From positions 1-32,912 of the forward strand of contig JALEMG010000053.1 in assembly GCA_022768375.1 (NCBI GenBank): a stretch of DNA of 32,912 nucleotides, read 5' to 3'. The notes under the pieces were generated by a model that did not search any database, was not told the DNA's origin, and was given only the letters and a program-made list of their open reading frames with translations. The translations under genes were made by a program, and so were the position numbers. Source of the stretch: Lentisphaeria bacterium. Its GTDB lineage: Bacteria; Verrucomicrobiota; Lentisphaeria; Victivallales; Victivallaceae. Within the stretch, counting starts at the first letter, position 1. Each line of letters begins with the position of its first letter. Below, in pieces: positions 24,207 through 31,849 of the stretch.

Positions 24207-24743
24207 ATGCTTGAGATCATCACCGGCGACATCACCCGTCTTGAGGCGGACGCTATCGTCAATGCGGCGAATTGTTCCCTGTTGGGCGGCAGCGGCGTGG
24301 ACGGCGCGATCCATCGTGCCGCCGGACCGGAACTGCTGGAAGCGTGCCGGAAATTCAACGGCTGTCCCACCGGCGAAGCCCGCATCACCCCGGGGTTTCA
24401 ACTCCCCGCGAAATTCGTCATCCACACGCCCGGCCCGATATGGCGCGGCGGCGATCACGGCGAGGCGGAACTGCTGAAAAACTGTTACCGCAATTCACTG
24501 GCGCTCGCCCGGGCAAACGGCTGCCGCAGCGTGGCGTTTCCGTGCATCGGCACCGGGGTATACCGCTTCCCCAAAGTCGAAGCGGCAAACATCGCCGTCG
24601 AAACCGTTTCCCTCCATCTGGCCGCCCCGGTGGTGAAGGTGATTTTCTGTTGTTTCTCCGAGGACGACGCCGAAATTTACCGGGCCGTGTGTTCCGCGTT
24701 TCCCCATGATCCGTCCTCCGATCTTGGTCTCGGATTCGTGTGA
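24207..24743 (+). CDS. macrodomain protein, O-acetyl-ADP-ribose deacetylase type
   Basis: 178 residues forming one macrodomain. Binding motifs are [20 protein letters not shown] (about 6-25), [14 protein letters not shown] with the catalytic-loop Asp, [12 protein letters not shown], and [11 protein letters not shown] near the distal phosphate. YmdB/MacroD-type enzymes remove acetyl-ADP-ribose or ADP-ribose from acidic residues. The ATG at 24207 follows GGAGAGGGGG; upstream in-frame codons lack family sequence. It is 80 nt downstream of the dehydrogenase gene and probably co-transcribed. Confidence 0.93.
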
Positions 24744-24753
24744 GACCTACCGT

Positions 24754-25023
24754 TCAGGAATCGAAAATCTTGCCGTTTTGACCGTGTATGAAGGTGTGGG
24801 AAACGGCCAAAGATGGCGTATAACGGAGATGCGAACGGGCGCGTGCATATTGGAGACGTCCGGATTTGGTGGATTTCCGCTTTTTTGCGTATCGTGCCGA
24901 GCGTTCCGCAGCCATCTTGCGGCGACAGGATTCATCGTAGCAGACGGTCTGCTCCGGGTGGTTCCACGCGGGAGTGAATTCTTTCCCGCAGATTCGGCAT
25001 TTGACGGATTTCAGGGTTGGCAT
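24754..25023 (-). CDS. small zinc-binding (CxxC...C...C) protein
   Basis: 89 residues. The first half reads like a zinc finger: CRICGKEFTP (Cys9, Cys12) then VCYDESCRRKMAAERSARY (Cys28, Cys33), followed by a Lys/Arg run. The tail after about residue 50 has no recognisable pattern and may be read-on after loss of an earlier stop. AGGAGG lies 5 nt before the ATG at 25023, which makes it a credible gene despite its size. It converges on the macrodomain gene, stop to stop 10 nt apart. Function unknown; nucleic-acid binding is a guess from the basic stretch. Confidence 0.7.
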   Translation of the reverse strand: MPTLKSVKCRICGKEFTPAWNHPEQTVCYDESCRRKMAAERSARYAKKRKSTKSGRLQYARARSHLRYTPSLAVSHTFIHGQNGKIFDS

Positions 25024-25136
25024 AGTATCCTCCTTTTTTTGCGGCTTTCGATGGATTCACCGTGAATCCGCCATCCGGTCGCGCTGTTGGATTACTATGC
25101 CCTCTCTTTCTGTTATAGGAAGTCGCTTTCTCCTTT

Positions 25137-25164
25137 ATATTTCCCTTTTATCCAGACTTTTCAA
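25137..25164 (-). promoter_or_regulatory. candidate promoter for the small zinc protein
   Basis: Minus strand: TTGAAA (25159-25164), 16-nt spacer, AATATA (25137-25142), in an AT-rich gap of 163 nt. The leader would be about 108 nt. Confidence 0.4.
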
Positions 25165-25186
25165 TACATATAAATATTTGCACTTA

Positions 25187-25960
25187 TTAAACTTTCAACA
25201 CGAACGATTTCAGTTCATCATACTCGCTGCCCACGTTGACTCCCATAAAACCGGGAACGACTTCGCCGATCACACGGCGATGTGTGTGTCCGCAAATCAG
25301 ATAATTGCTGAACAGCGAATCGAACGGCAGTTCATGCACCAAATCTTTCATGCCAGTGTAAAAGCTGTAATGCCCCGGCTCATGTCCGTTCAGCCGGACA
25401 TGCGGCAAATGGTGGGTGCAAAGCGCGGTCGGCATTCCCTTCTTCATCTTCGCATGGATCATGTCGACGTAATAGGCATTGAACGCCATGTACCGGGTTT
25501 CGATGTCGGGGATGCGCCAGTCTTGCCAGCCGTCCCATTCATCGATGCGCTGGTCGTCGCGGACTCGCATTGATCCGTCGAAGAATAAAGTTCCGCCGAC
25601 GAAGTTCACGCCACCGAGTTCGACTGCGCCGATCAGGTCCAGATAAAAGATGCTCGGGTCAGAAAGCGTCTGCTCCTTTAGCTTCTCCAGCGTGACCTCG
25701 AACGTCCGCCCCCAAAACTCGTGGTTGCCGAGAGTTGCTATTACGGGAATAGCATCGGGTATCAATGTCCGCAACATCACCGACAACAGCCGCACCTGCG
25801 GGGGACAAACCGTGTCTCCGGTGAGAACAACCGCATCCGGCGAAACCTCGGCCACGGTCGCAGCGATTTGCGCCAGAAACGGCGACAGATGCTGCCGATC
25901 AATGGCGTCCACCACTGCCTCTTGGCGCAGGTGCAGATCGGACAAACAGAGAAGTTTCAT
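25187..25960 (-). CDS. calcineurin-like metallophosphoesterase
   Basis: 257 residues with all family motifs: D8-L-H10, GDT (48-50), GNHE (78-81), HH (183-184) and GHTH (224-227), which bind two metal ions. No signal peptide or membrane segment, so it is cytoplasmic. It starts 1 nt after the stop of the methyltransferase-Fic gene (TAAAATG) with no separate ribosome site, implying coupled translation. Substrate unknown; pairing with a Fic-type AMP transferase is noteworthy but the functional link is inference. Confidence 0.9.
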   Translation of the reverse strand: MKLLCLSDLHLRQEAVVDAIDRQHLSPFLAQIAATVAEVSPDAVVLTGDTVCPPQVRLLSVMLRTLIPDAIPVIATLGNHEFWGRTFEVTLEKLKEQTLSDPSIFYLDLIGAVELGGVNFVGGTLFFDGSMRVRDDQRIDEWDGWQDWRIPDIETRYMAFNAYYVDMIHAKMKKGMPTALCTHHLPHVRLNGHEPGHYSFYTGMKDLVHELPFDSLFSNYLICGHTHRRVIGEVVPGFMGVNVGSEYDELKSFVLKV

Positions 25961-25961
25961 T

Positions 25962-26786
25962 TTATTGCAGGACTTCCCAGATGCCGTCGCGCTTGCCGTT
26001 TTTCCGGGCGAGAAGATTTTTCTCCTGCAACGCTCTGGTCAGGGTCTTCACGGTACGTTCCGATTTGCCGATTCTTTCCGCAATCATTTTTTGCGTCGCA
26101 CGAGGATTCTCTTTCAGGAACTCCAGTACGGCGGCTTCTTCCAAAGTGCAATTTTTGCACTTTGAATTTGCACTTTGAACTGGCAGCTCGTCTTTCCACA
26201 GTATATGGCAGAAGCGACTCTTGAGTTCATTTTTTCCGTGAAACAGCAGGTTTTCGAAGAACCGCTCCAAAAATTCGGTGGTCGCGAAAATCCCCTGCGC
26301 GTAGTTGTTGTAATTGGCCCGAACCAGCGCATTGCGGAAATACCAAGAGTGGAGCTTGAACGGTTCGTTGTCGACCGCAAAGCCGAATTTACGCAGATAG
26401 AAAATCGTGAAGACTGCGGTCGTTCTGGTATTTCCCTCCATGAACGGATGGATCTGCCACAGGATGTCGATGCCGTAGATGCTGCTCAGGGCGAGCAGCG
26501 AATCCGGCTCGTATGACGGGGCTTTCCAGCCGGGGCGCTTCTCGGCCTTTTTGAGACGCTTTTCCTGTTGGGCGAGTTTCCGTTCGATGACGGCGAGCTT
26601 TCGCTCCAATATCACGATGAGAAAGTTTCCGGTCCCGCAGGCGGGTTCCAGAAAGCGCGATTCGATGCGCTCCGTTTCCTGCTTGACCAAATCCAGCATG
26701 GCGTCGACCTCGCGCCGTGCTGTCATGACTTCGCCGTGATCCACGACGCGTTGTCTGCTGATGACCTGTTTTTCCTTATCGCTCAT
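25962..26786 (-). CDS. chimeric protein: DNA methyltransferase N-terminus fused to Fic domain and winged helix
   Basis: 274 residues in one open frame. Residues 1-109 match the start of an N6-adenine DNA methyltransferase: VDHGEVMTARREVDAMLDLV, then SAM motif I FLEPACGTGNFL (46-57) and SSIYGIDIL (101-109), where motif II should begin. At residue 110 the sequence switches to the middle of a Fic protein, WQIHPFMEGNTRTTAVF (Fic motif 113-121), with SWYFRNALVRANY and ATTEFLERFF after it, then a C-terminal winged helix (about 214-272). The methyltransferase catalytic motif and target-recognition part are missing, as is the N-terminal part of the Fic fold. It looks like the product of an in-frame deletion joining two genes. 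Either half could be inactive; the frame is nevertheless kept and a promoter is present. Confidence 0.8.
   Translation of the reverse strand: MSDKEKQVISRQRVVDHGEVMTARREVDAMLDLVKQETERIESRFLEPACGTGNFLIVILERKLAVIERKLAQQEKRLKKAEKRPGWKAPSYEPDSLLALSSIYGIDILWQIHPFMEGNTRTTAVFTIFYLRKFGFAVDNEPFKLHSWYFRNALVRANYNNYAQGIFATTEFLERFFENLLFHGKNELKSRFCHILWKDELPVQSANSKCKNCTLEEAAVLEFLKENPRATQKMIAERIGKSERTVKTLTRALQEKNLLARKNGKRDGIWEVLQ
26155..26180. repeat. 13-bp tandem repeat inside the Fic gene
   Basis: TTGCACTTTGAAT (26155-26167) is followed directly by TTGCACTTTGAAC (26168-26180), and the inverse AAAGTGCAA lies just before at 26143-26151. It codes for the stretch around SANSKCKNCT between Fic domain and winged helix. 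A change of one unit would shift the frame. Confidence 0.7.
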
Positions 26787-26873
26787 CTCTTACATCATTT
26801 CCGTTCCAGAGAACGTCAAATTTTTCGCATCTCACACCCTCCGCCTATGGCGGACGGCACAAATACCCATTAT

Positions 26874-26901
26874 AATATACAGCCTGCACCTATGAAGTCA
26901 A
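26874..26901 (-). promoter_or_regulatory. promoter for the methyltransferase-Fic gene
   Basis: Minus strand: TTGACT (26896-26901), 16-nt spacer, TATATT (26874-26879). The leader of about 80 nt contains a small CCGCC-TAT-GGCGG hairpin (26841-26853). Confidence 0.6.
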
Positions 26902-26957
26902 CTTTGACGCAACGTATTTCACGAAATTACTGCCGGACGCGGATGTCGGTCTTCGGC

Positions 26958-27335
26958 TTACTGCACATTGCCGCCTCCCAAGCTCACGACCGTCATCCGG
27001 GGCGGCGGGACTTCGCCTGGCGGCATCCACATGGTGATGAGGTCGAAGGTCCGCTTACCCTCGCGGAGCGGCTTGAGGCGGTTGCCGCTGCCGCCGAGGA
27101 CGATGCCCGTCCCGGCGATGACCATGCCCGTGCCAAAGAAGGTGAACGCCCCGCGGATCGGTTTCAGCCGCGCCTCCTCGTCGCAGACCAAGACGATGCC
27201 CCGGTCGAGTTGGACGAGCTGCACGAGGTCGCATCCGATGAGCCGGTACAGCTCATCGAGTGAGCGGTTGGGGTCGGTGGCGAGTTCGATCTTGCTCACC
27301 GTCTTCTCCACGGGATCTATCTTGATCGCTCTCAT
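26958..27335 (-). CDS. DUF3846-like small phage/ICE protein
   Basis: 125 residues resembling the DUF3846 family common in phages and conjugative elements: an N-terminal IKIDPVEKTVSKIEL strand, LDELYRLIGCDLVQLVQL, IVLVCDEEARLKPI and TFFGTGMVIAGTGIVLG. ATG 27335 follows GGGAGG at 8 nt and overlaps the stop of the split zinc-ribbon gene (ATGA). It is the last gene of a minus-strand row of small accessory genes. Molecular function unknown. Confidence 0.75.
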   Translation of the reverse strand: MRAIKIDPVEKTVSKIELATDPNRSLDELYRLIGCDLVQLVQLDRGIVLVCDEEARLKPIRGAFTFFGTGMVIAGTGIVLGGSGNRLKPLREGKRTFDLITMWMPPGEVPPPRMTVVSLGGGNVQ

Positions 27336-27488
27336 CGCTTGATCCTCCCGTTCTTGCCGGGCCAGCCGATGCCCTCGAAGTTGCGGTTGCCGGAACGCAC
27401 CGCGGCGAGTTCGGCGTCCGCCGCCAGCTGGTAGTCGGGGTGCTGGCGCTCCTCCTCGGCGCACTTCATGCAGATGGCGTCCGTGTTG
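27332..27488 (-). pseudogene. 3' part of the split CxxC..CxxC protein gene
   Basis: This piece encodes the C-terminal part (DAICMKCAEEERQHPDY ... GIGWPGKNGRIKR) of a 77-residue protein whose start is at 29060. Joining it with 28978-29060 across the 6-bp GTGTTG repeat restores one frame of exactly 78 codons including stop. The stop overlaps the ATG of the DUF3846-like gene. The insertion separates the two Cys pairs. Confidence 0.85.
27483..27488 (+). repeat. left GTGTTG core (attachment site)
   Basis: Left copy of the 6-bp repeat at the element boundary. The reconstructed empty site reads GCGTCC-GTGTTG-AAGCGG. Confidence 0.75.
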
Positions 27489-27512
27489 TTATGTTGTGAA
27501 ATAAATTATGTT
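27483..27512 (+). repeat. left copy of 30-bp inverted repeat
   Basis: Begins GTGTTGTTATGTTGTG and is identical to the reverse complement of 28928-28957 over 30 bp; with one gapped base the match continues for about 7 more. Confidence 0.9.
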
Positions 27513-27561
27513 TTAAATTCTGATTTTTATGCTATATTATAAGGAAGTACTCACAACATAA
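27489..27561. repeat. left inverted pair of TTATGTTGTGA (arm-site candidate)
   Basis: TTATGTTGTGA at 27489-27499 and its reverse complement at 27551-27561, separated by 51 nt. The same pair recurs at the right end with a 50-nt gap. The candidate promoter -10 (27533-27538) lies between them, so recombinase binding could shut down its own transcription. Confidence 0.7.
27530..27538 (+). promoter_or_regulatory. extended -10 of the element's promoter
   Basis: TGC-TATATT, the same extended -10 as at chromosomal genes in this window. The -35 is poor (TTTTAA at 27511-27516). It would drive the 102-residue and recombinase genes. Confidence 0.5.
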
Positions 27562-27570
27562 GAAAACAAA

Positions 27571-27879
27571 ATGAAATTCGATGAACTCTTAAAAAATCAA
27601 TTGGCAATACGACGTGCTGTTGGTGCGCCTTTCTGTGAATCACGGCTCAAGATATTACAGGAACTAAAGGAACAAGGTTATCGTTCCTCGACACTTCATA
27701 ACTATTCAAAAAGTCTGATTATAGCTGCAACGGTTATACATTCCTATCCCCCGAGTTTTATTTTTGATGATAATACGATAAAAAATATTGTGCAAGATAC
27801 AAAAGTCTATCTGACGACAACGTCAGAACTCTTACATATTGTATCAGAAAAATTTGAACAGCATACTTTTTCGAGGTGA
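27571..27879 (+). CDS. small SAM-like protein of the recombinase element
   Basis: 102 residues, strongly AT-rich codons. The segment ESRLKILQELKEQGYRSSTLHNYSKSLIIAATVI (read in pieces, about 23-57) resembles the N-terminal core-binding (SAM-like) domain of phage integrases, 'Lxxxx-GYxxxTLxxYxxxL', but no catalytic domain follows. It could be an accessory DNA-binding factor or a remnant of a second recombinase. It ends 3 nt before the recombinase ATG, so the two are translationally linked. No clear ribosome site precedes its ATG. Confidence 0.7.
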   Translation: MKFDELLKNQLAIRRAVGAPFCESRLKILQELKEQGYRSSTLHNYSKSLIIAATVIHSYPPSFIFDDNTIKNIVQDTKVYLTTTSELLHIVSEKFEQHTFSR

Positions 27880-27882
27880 AAC

Positions 27883-28875
27883 ATGAAAGAAAAACAGCTG
27901 CTTGGTTATTGGATTTCAGAATTCCTAACAGAAGAACTGATGACATACAGAAAGATGAGCATAAATACAATAAAAAGTTATCGGGACACCTTTGTTTTAC
28001 TGCTGAAATTCATTTCAGAGAAAGAAAAGCAAAATTATATTGACTTCCCGATTAAAAAGTTTTCACCGGCTCTCATAAAAGATTTCATCCAGTATTTGGA
28101 AGCAGAACGACATTGTTCTGCGACAAGCTGCAATCAGCGCCTGGCTGCAATCAAATCATTTTCAAAATTTCTCGGTTATAAATTACCTGATCTAATACAG
28201 AATGTTACCTCCATTGCCTGTATCCATTCCAAGCAAATAATTAAAAAAGAAATGGATTACCTTGCGCATGATGAAATTGATGTTATTCTCAATATTCCTG
28301 ACAGAGAAAAGAAACAAGGTTTTCGGAATTATGTGTTACTATTGTTGATGTTAAATACTGGAGCACGGGCAAGCGAAATTGCGAATCTTCATGTTGATGA
28401 TATCGTTTTTGGCGAATTCCCAACTGTTCGACTAAAGGGAAATAAAACTCGCATGTGCCCTCTTTGGAAAAGAACGTCGGAAAAGATGCAGAATTTGATT
28501 TCTCTGAATGGCGATAGAAAAACGTTCATCTTTTGGGGTGAGAGAAATAATCCGATCACACGACATGGCATATACGAGATTGTTGAAAAAACGATAGCTC
28601 AAGCAAAAACTATTTGCCCATCAATTGCAGCAAAAAAGATAACTCCACATTCACTCCGGCACACAACGGCTATGGAATTGCTCTCCGCTGGGACAGATAT
28701 AAATACAATACGAGCTTGGCTTGGTCACGTATCACTCAAAACAACAAATATTTATGCAACGATTGATTTGGAAACAAAAGCAAAGGCTATTTACAAATGT
28801 TCTGCAAATGTAACAGACACGACACCTGCATGGAAGAATGATGATAAACTCTTAGCCTTCTTGAAAAATCTATAA
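27883..28875 (+). CDS. tyrosine recombinase/integrase
   Basis: 330 residues with an intact catalytic set: Arg162 (NTGARASEI), the beta-hairpin Lys at 185 or 188 (RLKGNKTRM), His256-x-x-Arg259 (HSLRHTTAMELL), His282 (WLGH) and nucleophile Tyr291 (TNIYATI). The N-terminal SAM-like domain (about 10-105) binds the core site. GAGG lies 6 nt before the ATG. It is the only recombinase in the element and probably catalyses insertion and excision across GTGTTG. The AT-rich codon use differs sharply from the surrounding chromosome and marks recent transfer. Confidence 0.95.
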   Translation: MKEKQLLGYWISEFLTEELMTYRKMSINTIKSYRDTFVLLLKFISEKEKQNYIDFPIKKFSPALIKDFIQYLEAERHCSATSCNQRLAAIKSFSKFLGYKLPDLIQNVTSIACIHSKQIIKKEMDYLAHDEIDVILNIPDREKKQGFRNYVLLLLMLNTGARASEIANLHVDDIVFGEFPTVRLKGNKTRMCPLWKRTSEKMQNLISLNGDRKTFIFWGERNNPITRHGIYEIVEKTIAQAKTICPSIAAKKITPHSLRHTTAMELLSAGTDINTIRAWLGHVSLKTTNIYATIDLETKAKAIYKCSANVTDTTPAWKNDDKLLAFLKNL

Positions 28876-28879
28876 AACA

Positions 28880-28951
28880 TTATGTTGTGAAATTATTCTA
28901 CTCCATTCAATCAAATTCAAATTTAACAACATAATTTATTTCACAACATAA
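28880..28951. repeat. right inverted pair of TTATGTTGTGA (arm-site candidate)
   Basis: TTATGTTGTGA at 28880-28890 and its reverse complement at 28941-28951, 50 nt apart, mirroring the left end. Confidence 0.7.
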
Positions 28952-28957
28952 CAACAC
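28928..28957 (-). repeat. right copy of 30-bp inverted repeat
   Basis: Reverse complement of 27483-27512, perfect over 30 bp. It ends 20 bp before the element boundary defined by gene reconstruction. Confidence 0.9.
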
Positions 28958-28984
28958 TTATGTTATATACTGCATAAGTGTTGA
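28953..28984. repeat. right-end palindrome CAACACTTATG...CATAAGTGTTG
   Basis: Perfect 11-bp arms (28953-28963, 28974-28984) around a 10-nt AT-rich centre. It spans the right boundary and includes the right GTGTTG core; the layout is that of a recombinase dimer site. Confidence 0.8.
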
Positions 28985-29060
28985 AGCGGCTCATCGTGAA
29001 GCCGCCGTCCAGGGGCGCGCCGCAACGGTCGCAACGTTTCTTGTTGAAGAATTCGTCCAT
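28978..29060 (-). pseudogene. 5' part of the split CxxC..CxxC protein gene
   Basis: Begins with ATG at 29060 (GGAG upstream) and encodes MDEFFNKKRCDRCGAPL to FNT, with the first Cys pair (10 and 13). Reading then enters the mobile element and stops soon after. With the other part it gives a 77-residue zinc-ribbon protein (C10-x2-C13-x18-C32-x2-C35) of a type frequent in phages and integrative elements. Confidence 0.85.
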
Positions 29061-29096
29061 TTTTCAATGCTCCGTTTTTTCCGACGTGATATTAAA

Positions 29097-29429
29097 TTAA
29101 TCATCGTTGATTTTGATAGCCCAATGTTCCAATCCCCTTCTGTCCACTTCCGCTGAAACGAGTTCAAAAAGTTTCATCCAGTGGTATCGGTCACAGTCCC
29201 ACCCCAAGGTTCTATATTGCTCTCTCTTCGCGCGTTGTTCGTTGTCTTCGTGAATTGCTTCCGACAACTCCTTTTCCAGTAACAGCAGAAAATGGTCTGT
29301 AATCTGCCGTACTTTTTGGCTCGCTTCTTCACAATAATTGGACACGACATATGTTCTGCGTCCAAGGCAATAGCGAAATGCGCAAAAGTAAATTTGCGAT
29401 TCCGCATCGGTGAACATTTCAGTTTTCAT
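29097..29429 (-). CDS. hypothetical protein of the accessory row
   Basis: 110 residues, not recognised. It is helical and rich in charged residues in the middle (LLLLEKELSEAIHEDNEQRAKRE), with no signal peptide or membrane segment. GGAG is 6 nt before the ATG at 29429, and the start overlaps the previous gene's end by 11 nt, so it belongs to the same operon as its neighbours. It lies directly upstream of the split zinc-ribbon gene. Confidence 0.65.
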   Translation of the reverse strand: MKTEMFTDAESQIYFCAFRYCLGRRTYVVSNYCEEASQKVRQITDHFLLLLEKELSEAIHEDNEQRAKREQYRTLGWDCDRYHWMKLFELVSAEVDRRGLEHWAIKINDD

Positions 29430-29664
29430 GCTCTTCTCCGTTCTGCTTTAAGCAATATCCCGGCGCGATCTCATCAAGATAATCCCACTTGGCGATAAGG
29501 TCTGTCGAATAACCGATTTTGCTGAATGCGTGAAAATATTTTTCATGCGTATCGTTTGTTTCAGCGATGAATCCCGTCAGCGGGAGCGGCGGTACATCGC
29601 CGAATACAAGCAGGGCGAGTACCACTCGCCACATTTCCGGCAATTCCTTTTTTCCGTCATGCAT
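29419..29664 (-). CDS. hypothetical small protein of the accessory row
   Basis: 81 residues, not recognised. ATG 29664 is chosen because GGGAGG lies about 10 nt upstream and the start overlaps the end of the preceding gene by 8 nt; longer readings would run through that gene. A hydrophobic patch (VVLALLVFG, about 14-22) is too short for a clear membrane segment. Confidence 0.6.
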   Translation of the reverse strand: MHDGKKELPEMWRVVLALLVFGDVPPLPLTGFIAETNDTHEKYFHAFSKIGYSTDLIAKWDYLDEIAPGYCLKQNGEEHEN

Positions 29665-30058
29665 TTCCCTTGCCCTCCCTTGCGATGATGACATCAAGTT
29701 CATGCCAGTCAGGGTCGTTGTAGAGTCCGCACACTATCCACTTGCCGTCGTCGAAGAGGTAGAGGTACTCGGCGGCGAGTCTGCCCTTGCCGCGGTATTG
29801 GTACTCGTCGACCGAGGGGAACGTGACCGCCTCGCGGTATGCTTCGCCCATGTCGCGGTGGTACGCGGTACAGGTCTCCGGCGTCTCCTTGATCTCGCTC
29901 AACTCGCCGAGGGCGAGGAGCGCCTCGACCTGCTCGGCGGTCTTGTACCAACCGCCGAGGATCGCCCCGGCGTACCCGACGTAGCCGTCCCAGTTCAGCC
30001 GCACCGCCCGGACGCTCCCGTCCGGCTGCTTCATTCCGATTGCCGCGTTCGTGCTCAT
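29657..30058 (-). CDS. phage/ICE-type small protein (MSTxAAIG family)
   Basis: 133 residues. The start MSTNAAIGMKQPDGSVRAV followed by WDGYVGYAGAIL and later TAYHRDMGE is typical of a hypothetical family found in phages and integrative elements ('MST-x-x-x-IG ... DGS-x-R-x-x-x-x-x-WDGY'). Function unknown. A strong AAAGGAG site is 7 nt before ATG 30058. It is the first gene of the minus-strand accessory row that continues through the split zinc-ribbon gene to the DUF3846-like gene. Confidence 0.75.
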   Translation of the reverse strand: MSTNAAIGMKQPDGSVRAVRLNWDGYVGYAGAILGGWYKTAEQVEALLALGELSEIKETPETCTAYHRDMGEAYREAVTFPSVDEYQYRGKGRLAAEYLYLFDDGKWIVCGLYNDPDWHELDVIIAREGKGNA

Positions 30059-30105
30059 CGTGATGCTCCTTTCATCAGTTGAACCGCTTGTCTGCTTGAG
30101 GGAAG

Positions 30106-30134
30106 TGCGGAAATTCAAACTTTGGATTTCCGCA
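30106..30134. promoter_or_regulatory. 9-bp inverted repeat upstream of the accessory row
   Basis: TGCGGAAAT (30106-30114) and ATTTCCGCA (30126-30134), 11 nt apart, lie 48 nt before the first start codon. It may be an operator or a leader hairpin. The rest of 30059-30283 shows no gene or clear promoter. Confidence 0.45.
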
Positions 30135-30283
30135 TTTCTCATTTTAAAGATACGCCGAAAGGTAAGTTTTTTTTGAAAGGACGCCGTTTCGACTCCCGCA
30201 AGGTTTGCATTAGTTCTTGTTGCATAATGGCCGAAACGGTCGGGGATGACCATATTGATAATCAGCGTGTTATGACCTGTGAC

Positions 30284-30308
30284 AAAAATCGGAGTTGACA
30301 CAACTCCG
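30284..30308 (-). terminator. second terminator downstream of the tRNA genes
   Basis: CGGAGTT (30290-30296) and AACTCCG (30302-30308) form a perfect 7-bp stem with a 5-nt loop; on the minus strand it is followed by ATTTTTG. It separates tRNA transcription from the accessory row. Confidence 0.65.
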
Positions 30309-30411
30309 TTTCCAAAAATCTGAGACAAATAGCGGTTTCGCGGCCTCGGAGCTGTGTCCGATAGCAAAAACGGAGTCGCGTAGCGGTGTTTTGAGGTCAA
30401 ATTTCGAGGCT

Positions 30412-30442
30412 GAAAACAGAAAAGCCAGTCGCGTGGACTGGC
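30412..30442 (-). terminator. terminator of the tRNA-Gly/tRNA-Phe unit
   Basis: GCCAGTC (30424-30430) and GACTGGC (30436-30442) form a 7-bp stem; on the minus strand TTTTCTGTTTTC follows. It lies 15 nt beyond the tRNA-Phe CCA end. Confidence 0.75.
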
Positions 30443-30456
30443 GTAGACACAAAAAA

Positions 30457-30532
30457 TGGTGGCCGGACCCAGAATCGAACTGGGGACACGGGGATTTTCA
30501 GTCCCCTGCTCTACCAACTGAGCTATCCTGCC
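30457..30532 (-). tRNA. tRNA-Phe (GAA)
   Basis: 76 nt with encoded CCA. Anticodon loop CTGAAAA inside the stem GGGGA/TCCCC, D arm AGCTCAGTTGGTAGAGC, T loop TTCGATT. The acceptor GGCAGGA / TCCGGCC pairs except for A4 opposite G69. Second in a tRNA pair, 6 nt after tRNA-Gly. Confidence 0.95.
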
Positions 30533-30538
30533 ACAAAC

Positions 30539-30614
30539 TGGAGCGAGTGACCGGAATCGAACCGGCGACAATCACGTTGGCAACGTGATGCTCTACCAAC
30601 TGAGCTACACTCGC
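30539..30614 (-). tRNA. tRNA-Gly (GCC)
   Basis: 76 nt with encoded CCA. Acceptor GCGAGTG / CACTCGC is perfect; anticodon stem TCACG/CGTGA with loop TTGCCAA; T stem GCCGG/CCGGT closing TTCGATT. Driven by the promoter at 30631-30659. Confidence 0.97.
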
Positions 30615-30630
30615 ACCCTGCAATGCGCTT

Positions 30631-30659
30631 AATATACCCCGCTTGAACACGTTTGTCAA
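30631..30659 (-). promoter_or_regulatory. promoter of the tRNA unit
   Basis: Minus strand: TTGACA (30654-30659), 17-nt spacer, TATATT (30631-30636), start expected about 15 nt before tRNA-Gly. Near-consensus boxes fit a stable-RNA gene. Confidence 0.85.
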
Positions 30660-30669
30660 GCGGTTTTTT
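30639..30669 (+). terminator. plus-strand terminator overlapping the tRNA promoter
   Basis: CCGCTTGA (30639-30646) and TCAAGCGG (30656-30663) form a perfect 8-bp stem with a 9-nt loop, followed on the plus strand by six T (30664-30669). It would stop antisense transcription coming through the tRNAs; for the decarboxylase transcript on the minus strand it offers a hairpin without a T-run. Confidence 0.6.
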
Positions 30670-30670
30670 C

Positions 30671-31849
30671 TCACTTTTTCCCGGAATCCACGAAATACAC
30701 CGGCAGCGGCGGAAATCCGTTGAACTCCACCGAGGCGTAACTCGACGTGTACGCCCCGCAACTCAGCCAATACACCCGGTCCCCCGATTTGATGTACGCC
30801 GGCAACGGATTGCGGAAGTATTCGTACATCACATCCTGACTGTCACACGTCGGCCCCGCGATGATGAAGTCTTCACACGCCTCGCCCCGGGCTTCACAGT
30901 ACAGCGGATACTTGATGCTCTCGTCCCACGTCTCGATCAATCCGTTGAACTTGCCCACATCCAAATAAAGCCAGCGGTCCAGTCCGGTAGTGGATTTCTG
31001 GCTGACCAGCACCACTTCGCTGGCGATGATCCCCGCTTCGCCCACCAGCGAACGGCCGGGTTCCAGAATGATCTCCGGCAGATTCTCTCCGAAGTCCTCC
31101 TCCAAGTAGCGGGTGATCTCGTCGGCGTACACATCCATCGTATTGGTCTTGCTGATGTAACTGGCCGGGAAGCCACCGCCCATATTGATGAGATCCGGCT
31201 TGATCCCCTCCTCCTCCAGATAGTCGAAAATATACCGGACTTTGGCGATGGCGGAGTCCCAAGTGCCGATTTCCCGCTGCTGGGAACCGACGTGAAACGA
31301 TACCCCGGCCGGCTTCAAACCGAGTTCCCGGGCCAGCGTGAGCAGGTCAATCGCCATGTCCGGGTGGCAGCCGAACTTTCGGGAAAGCGGCCAGTCCGCC
31401 GTTTCGCTGCCCTCGGTAAGCACCCGGCAGAAGACACGGGAACCGGGGGCCTCCTTGCCGATGTTGCGCAGATCCGGTTCGCTGTCGGTGGCAAAGAGGC
31501 GAACCCCTTTCTCATAAAAGTAACGGATGTCCGTCCGCTTTTTGATGGTGTTGCCGTAACTGATGCGTTCGGGAGCAATGCCGAGACTCAGTACCCGGTC
31601 CAGTTCATAGCGGGAAGCAATGTCGAAGTTGGAACCCAAGTCCCGCAGCAGTTCCAGCACTTCCACCGCGGGGTTGGCCTTGACCGCGTAATACACTTTG
31701 GCAAAAGGGAAATACTCCTTGAGTTCGGCGTATTTCCGCCGGATCCGGTCCAGATCGACGATCAGGCACGGCGTATCGTGCCGGTCCGCCTCGGATTTCA
31801 GCGCTTTCCAACTGTTTTCTGAGTAATATTCCCGCACGTCGACTCGCAT
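30671..31849 (-). CDS. fold-type III PLP decarboxylase (ornithine/lysine decarboxylase)
   Basis: 392 residues with an alanine-racemase-type barrel and C-terminal beta domain. PLP Lys57 is in YYAVKANP; GGGFP (224-228) binds phosphate; EPGR (263-266) follows; Cys335 in GPTCDSQDVM is the ornithine decarboxylase active-site Cys from the partner subunit. It makes putrescine and/or cadaverine; the sequence alone does not separate ornithine from lysine preference. ATG 31849 has AGGAGG at 7 nt; the ATG at 31855 is only 1 nt from that site and is unlikely. It has its own promoter and lies upstream of the tRNA pair on the same strand. Confidence 0.93.
   Translation of the reverse strand: MRVDVREYYSENSWKALKSEADRHDTPCLIVDLDRIRRKYAELKEYFPFAKVYYAVKANPAVEVLELLRDLGSNFDIASRYELDRVLSLGIAPERISYGNTIKKRTDIRYFYEKGVRLFATDSEPDLRNIGKEAPGSRVFCRVLTEGSETADWPLSRKFGCHPDMAIDLLTLARELGLKPAGVSFHVGSQQREIGTWDSAIAKVRYIFDYLEEEGIKPDLINMGGGFPASYISKTNTMDVYADEITRYLEEDFGENLPEIILEPGRSLVGEAGIIASEVVLVSQKSTTGLDRWLYLDVGKFNGLIETWDESIKYPLYCEARGEACEDFIIAGPTCDSQDVMYEYFRNPLPAYIKSGDRVYWLSCGAYTSSYASVEFNGFPPLPVYFVDSGKK

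Follow-up and report, generated by a model that had tools for sequence, protein, structure and literature searches.

A reduced RIT-derived element with a 20-bp linker that probably entered a small Lentisphaeria gene by tyrosine recombination

Background

RIT elements, found in many phyla by a search here that gave 377 relatives, are recognised by three adjacent, overlapping tyrosine recombinase genes (ritA, ritB, ritC), a recombinase of the RitC subgroup, and terminal inverted repeats with an overlapping palindrome and RIT-like end sites. The sections of PMC3414803 drawn on here give a length of about 3.5 kb and an inverted repeat of '28-9 bp' overlapped by a palindrome, left uninterpreted and described as a poor fit to the usual sites, and call the need for three enzymes difficult to understand. 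RitA has two sequential core-binding domains (PMC8138268, sections consulted), and in 2023 RIT movement was listed as not tested, with no laboratory-reproduced transposition known (PMC10214605, sections consulted).

GInt islands and strand-biased circularizing elements (SEs) share with the unit described here a 6-nt exchange region that can draw its bases from the target or flank (sections of PMC5385486 and PMC10214605), but they depend on a conserved set of four genes (GinABCD; intA, tfp, intB, srap), reported essential for recombination, whereas the unit has two genes and a 20-bp linker; judged from those two ORFs, assigned to RitC and a RitA domain, the four-gene set including tfp/ginC and srap/ginD is absent. 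The Tn554 family likewise comprises tyrosine recombinase transposons with a 6-bp footprint (PMC10214605, sections consulted), but with two recombinases plus TnpC. Judged from the single RitC-type recombinase of the unit, the TnpA, TnpB, TnpC set is not present. Tn916 resembles the unit in its 6-bp coupling sequences, for which a match to the target is not required, and differs in being a large conjugative element with Int and Xis.

Layout of the inserted unit

The window, by which we mean the whole 32,912-nt stretch analysed (contig JALEMG010000053.1, assembly GCA_022768375.1, Lentisphaeria bacterium), contains at positions 27483-28977 an inserted unit of 1495 bp, which is flanked by copies of GTGTTG and is AT-rich (G+C 34.7%, vs 61.1% elsewhere in the window). 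Two plus-strand ORFs, of 102 and 330 aa and separated by 3 bases, span the unit, whose overall layout is S-element-S'-linker-S, where S is GTGTTG and S' its reverse complement. The features are as follows.

27332..27482 (-): 3' portion of the split host gene (77 codons)
27483..27488 (+): S at the left junction: GTGTTG, an outer spacer of 6 bp
27483..27530 (+): left terminal inverted repeat including S, with the outer site TTATGTTGTG at 27489 and the second site at 27506, 17 bp further in
27551..27561 (-): third left end site, inverted, TCACAACATAA, just upstream of the first ORF
27571..27879 (+): 102-aa protein, a free-standing RitA N-terminal domain by profile match
27883..28875 (+): 330-aa tyrosine recombinase, RitC type by profile match
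28880..28893 (+): third right-end site TTATGTTGTGAAAT
28910..28957 (-): right terminal inverted repeat, which carries an outer and a second site and has S' (CAACAC) as its end
28952..28957 (+): inner spacer S' (CAACAC), the reverse complement of S
28958..28977 (+): linker of 20 bp, TTATGTT-ATATAC-TGCATAA, in which two inverted half-sites abut
28978..28983 (+): S at the right junction: GTGTTG, again as outer spacer
28978..29060 (-): 5' portion of the split host gene (77 codons)

The interrupted host gene

When the two flanks were joined, a 77-codon frame resulted, whose protein weakly resembled a double zinc ribbon, with an E of 0.0056 that falls short of the curated cut-off. Homologues of this gene were found in 20 of 148 genomes (own included), at 25 places, of which 23 are places other than the window's two gene halves. 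The insertion site was covered and uninterrupted in 18 of these 23 places in related genomes, while the remaining five match the protein only in part and so do not bear on the site, and CAACAC stood at the site in 10 of the 13 places compared as DNA. The insert is therefore no native part of the host gene, and the 6-mer probably stood at this place before the insertion. The original prediction had described a 1495-bp AT-rich insert splitting a 77-codon gene, whose exact removal restores the reading frame, and had proposed a search for empty sites among homologues; that search was run, and both descriptions held. An origin as sequence native to the gene family, or as an assembly artefact, is hardly credible given the 18 uninterrupted places, the RIT-type ends and the spacer duplication, even though the unit is single-copy (a DNA search of its own genome, 94.75% complete, returned no further copy) and the assembly is a draft of 64 contigs.

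The two proteins

The 330-aa recombinase scored 376.9 bits against the RitC profile, compared with 74.6 for RitA and 33.8 for RitB, which places it in the RitC subgroup, and it was 41-45% identical to RitC of eight RIT loci. Its catalytic residues, Y291 being the tyrosine, are present, as read from the invariant columns of the RitC alignment. The 102-aa protein matched a RitA N-terminal domain profile, built from 51 domains with the window's own sequence excluded, at 40.8 bits (best of 2000 shuffles, 7.8). Some trios contain a RitA that lacks this N-terminal domain (L028, L156, L173), so the domain looks like a separable module.

A profile search within the inserted unit gave no match to RitB or to the catalytic part of RitA. 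By contrast with RIT elements, therefore, the adjacent, overlapping ritA, ritB and ritC are replaced by RitC and a RitA N-terminal domain only, the latter as a separate protein, in 1.5 kb; RitC, the RitA N-terminal domain, inverted repeats with an overlapping palindrome and location inside genes are common to both. The unit is thus RIT-derived by its RitC, its RitA domain and its end sites, but not RIT in the strict sense. The prediction of a small element with one tyrosine recombinase and one small protein is accordingly borne out, while the view that it could be placed in no named family finds no support. No second copy of the two-gene form was detected in the genomes and sequences searched, and no circle reads were seen.

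A full RIT, inserted here or elsewhere, could have lost RitB and the catalytic part of RitA by internal deletion, leaving a remnant that is dead or dependent on a helper, and we regard this as quite possible, if somewhat short of an even chance. RitB or a fragment of it was present in all 97 comparison loci (including the best 80 of the 377 relatives); a decayed RIT on an Agrobacterium plasmid (L026) retains a whole RitC with only fragments of RitA and RitB; and the window RitC deviates at 8 of the 60 columns that at least 95% of the other sequences conserve, the second highest number among 92 sequences, a pattern compatible with either solo specialisation or relaxed constraint. However, neither a RitB match nor the RitA catalytic part is left in the unit, the small ORF stops near the end of the RitA domain, and a ribosome-site-like GAGGTG, seen on sequence inspection, runs straight into the ritC ATG. 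Nor did a helper come to light: with RitA and RitB as queries, the other recombinases picked up in the genome (94.75% complete) were an XerD (above the cut-off) and an XerC-like protein (just below). The reading in which RitC and the small RitA-like domain would act without RitA catalysis or RitB, making the two-gene unit autonomous, has in our judgement about an even chance of being right.

Two further observations concern RitC relatives. On two viral contigs (L183, L184), RitC lacked the first 64 profile positions and no RitA or RitB match lay upstream; these copies are probably decayed. PDB chain 9i5v_14, labelled translation inhibitor RaiA, matched the window recombinase at 1.2e-18 over 225 residues, and its label looks misplaced.

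End sites

The terminal inverted repeats (27483-27530 and 28910-28957) are 88% identical over 48 nt, with the first 30 perfect, and a palindrome at 28952-28983 of the window overlaps the right one, in keeping with the RIT description. We surveyed the ends of 40 loci, window included, picked for having both outer arms found. An outer site TTATGTkG was followed by a second copy 16-18 bp further in at 39 of 40 left and 38 of 40 right ends, and an inverted third site lay within 35-125 bp at 36/40 left and 37/40 right ends, usually at 74-75 bp (27/36 left, 22/37 right); with shuffled ends, only 0.8 to 1.5 of 40 loci reached this pattern. The window carries all of these sites, the third at 65 and 64 bp, showing at the level of sequence that the RIT end anatomy of three sites per end is kept in its unit.

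Spacers and linker across loci

A first scan covered 90 sequences (window, L025-L033, L035-L114), required S' to be the inverse of S, and tolerated a single mismatch each in the arms and in the spacers; it returned 23 sites, compared with none in a control of one mononucleotide shuffle. The second scan, which used the palindrome and a matching arm at the opposite end without reference to the spacers, covered 98 loci (window, best 80 of 377 relatives, 8 plasmid loci and 9 others); L159, apparently the same contig as L047, had been set aside ahead of the count, and L026 was also outside the set. The linker was found in 41 of these 98 loci, while a linker with both arms was missing in 57, a total that includes any cut by contig ends. 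At the linker end the order is arm, S', 20-bp palindrome (arms NNATGT / ACATNN), S, target. L090, whose opposite end falls beyond the contig, was dropped from the spacer counts, one row was counted for each two-linker locus (L047, L057, L070), and near-identical copies were retained in the resulting 40 loci.

The two outer spacers were identical in 21 of the 40 usable loci (20/39 without the window), the inner spacer was the inverse of the adjoining outer one in 25 (24/39), and all three agreed in 15 (14/39). With spacers permuted among loci, the two pairwise matches came out at 0.7 and 0.8 of 40, and sliding both windows by 0, 1, 2 and 3 bases gave outer-spacer identity in 21, 6, 3 and 2 of 40. 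When one locus per distinct linker was taken, 12 of 32 had all three spacers exact. The linker was on the left side of the body in 26 loci and on the right side in the other 14. Outer spacers were unequal in 19/40 loci (by more than one base in 10/40), and the inner spacer was not the exact inverse of the outer in 15/40; strict spacer identity is thus not required. The 40 loci carried 33 different outer spacers, so that GTGTTG, which had been predicted to be a defined 6-bp core, is by sequence comparison a 6-bp spacer shared with the target, with no fixed core. The consulted sections of PMC3414803, PMC2864759, PMC10214605, PMC8138268 and PMC5385486 contain no RIT description with target-matched spacers, the 20-bp linker or a one-recombinase form.

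Empty site and multiple copies in other genomes

A DNA methylase gene of E. coli plasmids is intact in L034 and interrupted by the RIT in L028. The empty site in L034 has GACCCG once and no linker, and the filled site in L028 reads GACCCG, 20-bp linker, CGGGTC, element, GACCCG; because the linker is absent from the natural empty site, it arrives with the element. One complete genome of the phylum contained four RIT copies, identical from RitC outwards to both ends, in which the side of the target spacer GTTGTG taken by the linker never varied, while body orientation was split two vs two. In two of the four, a single-base difference marked one outer spacer (ATTGTG or CACAAT), which would follow from one junction retaining the spacer of the target and the other that of the element. 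L035 and L036, from one Bryobacterales genome, likewise had bodies in opposite orientation; the four copies and this pair share target types, which makes the fixed linker side weaker evidence than it appears. On Mesorhizobium amorphae plasmid pM0123d, L100 and L102 had the same body-adjoining spacers (CAGCGG, CCTCCA) with the linker at opposite ends, and CCTCCA was the native sequence at the corresponding position of one IS66 copy among the three whole ones set against L100.

Some single loci showed additional features. The inner spacer of L102 is identical to the outer one that L100 has at one of its junctions, as if it were a 6-bp memory of an earlier site. Inverted copies of neighbouring sequence flank the RIT in L025 (1195-1752 and 5058-5615; 558 bp, 98%) and in L027 (494-730 and 5112-5348; 237 bp), and L070 has inverted flank copies at both ends and linkers on both sides; such long inverted flanks could have been made by recombination of two RIT copies at like targets. 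Other flanks match IS66 transposase genes or IS21-type istA (L031, L100, L029), and those of L035, L040, L043 and L047 are putative group II intron sequence.

Proposed origin and mechanism

Taken as a whole, the insert is probably a reduced RIT-derived element that entered the gene by tyrosine recombination across the 6-bp GTGTTG spacer. The linker would contribute two half-sites, so that a full core site (arm-S'-arm) would remain at one end after insertion. The excised circle would be body-S'-linker-S, with two core sites in opposite directions, and opening it at either one would give S-body-S'-linker-S with the body either way round, which are the layouts seen in the four copies and in L035/L036. 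Recombination between the two direct copies of S would excise the circle and restore the gene exactly, and S with S' would invert the body in place; since all three spacers match in the window, exact restoration by excision would be expected and inversion would be possible. Heteroduplex resolution of the kind reported for GInts (PMC5385486, sections consulted) could account for mismatched spacers.

The host's Xer recombinases could instead drive the movement in the manner of IMEX elements, whose ends host XerCD recombines at dif, with RitC as an accessory. The genome encodes XerD and XerC-like proteins, and the circle junction predicted on sequence inspection, CATAA-GTGTTG-TTATG, has a dif-like layout; yet the end sites are the RIT ones and the RitC catalytic residues are intact, and we consider this route very unlikely. 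For the RIT-derived element moved by its own recombinase, the S'-linker-S strand of the window has a predicted hairpin fold (-9.7 kcal/mol, z -4.8), which makes a single-strand route conceivable, like the one used by integron cassettes.

A wider proposal, tentative and rather doubtful as a whole, is that the unit is the smallest autonomous RIT relative, with RitC and a detached RitA domain replacing the trio, and that RIT linkers serve as a built-in second crossover site, letting integrated elements keep one complete core site, invert in place, and carry, in the inner spacer, 6 bp from an earlier target that may guide where they insert next. With a natural one-recombinase version, the need of RIT for three recombinases could be tested directly, and the spacer-linker-spacer anatomy predicts exact junctions for excision, inversion and target choice.

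Neighbourhood in the window

The ORF at 25962-26786 (-) is an apparent fusion of an MmeI-type methyltransferase piece, a Fic motif piece and a winged-helix end. Adjacent tRNA-Phe and tRNA-Gly genes (30457-30614, -) lie at the edge of a lower-GC stretch from about 24700 to 30700, which may be an island.
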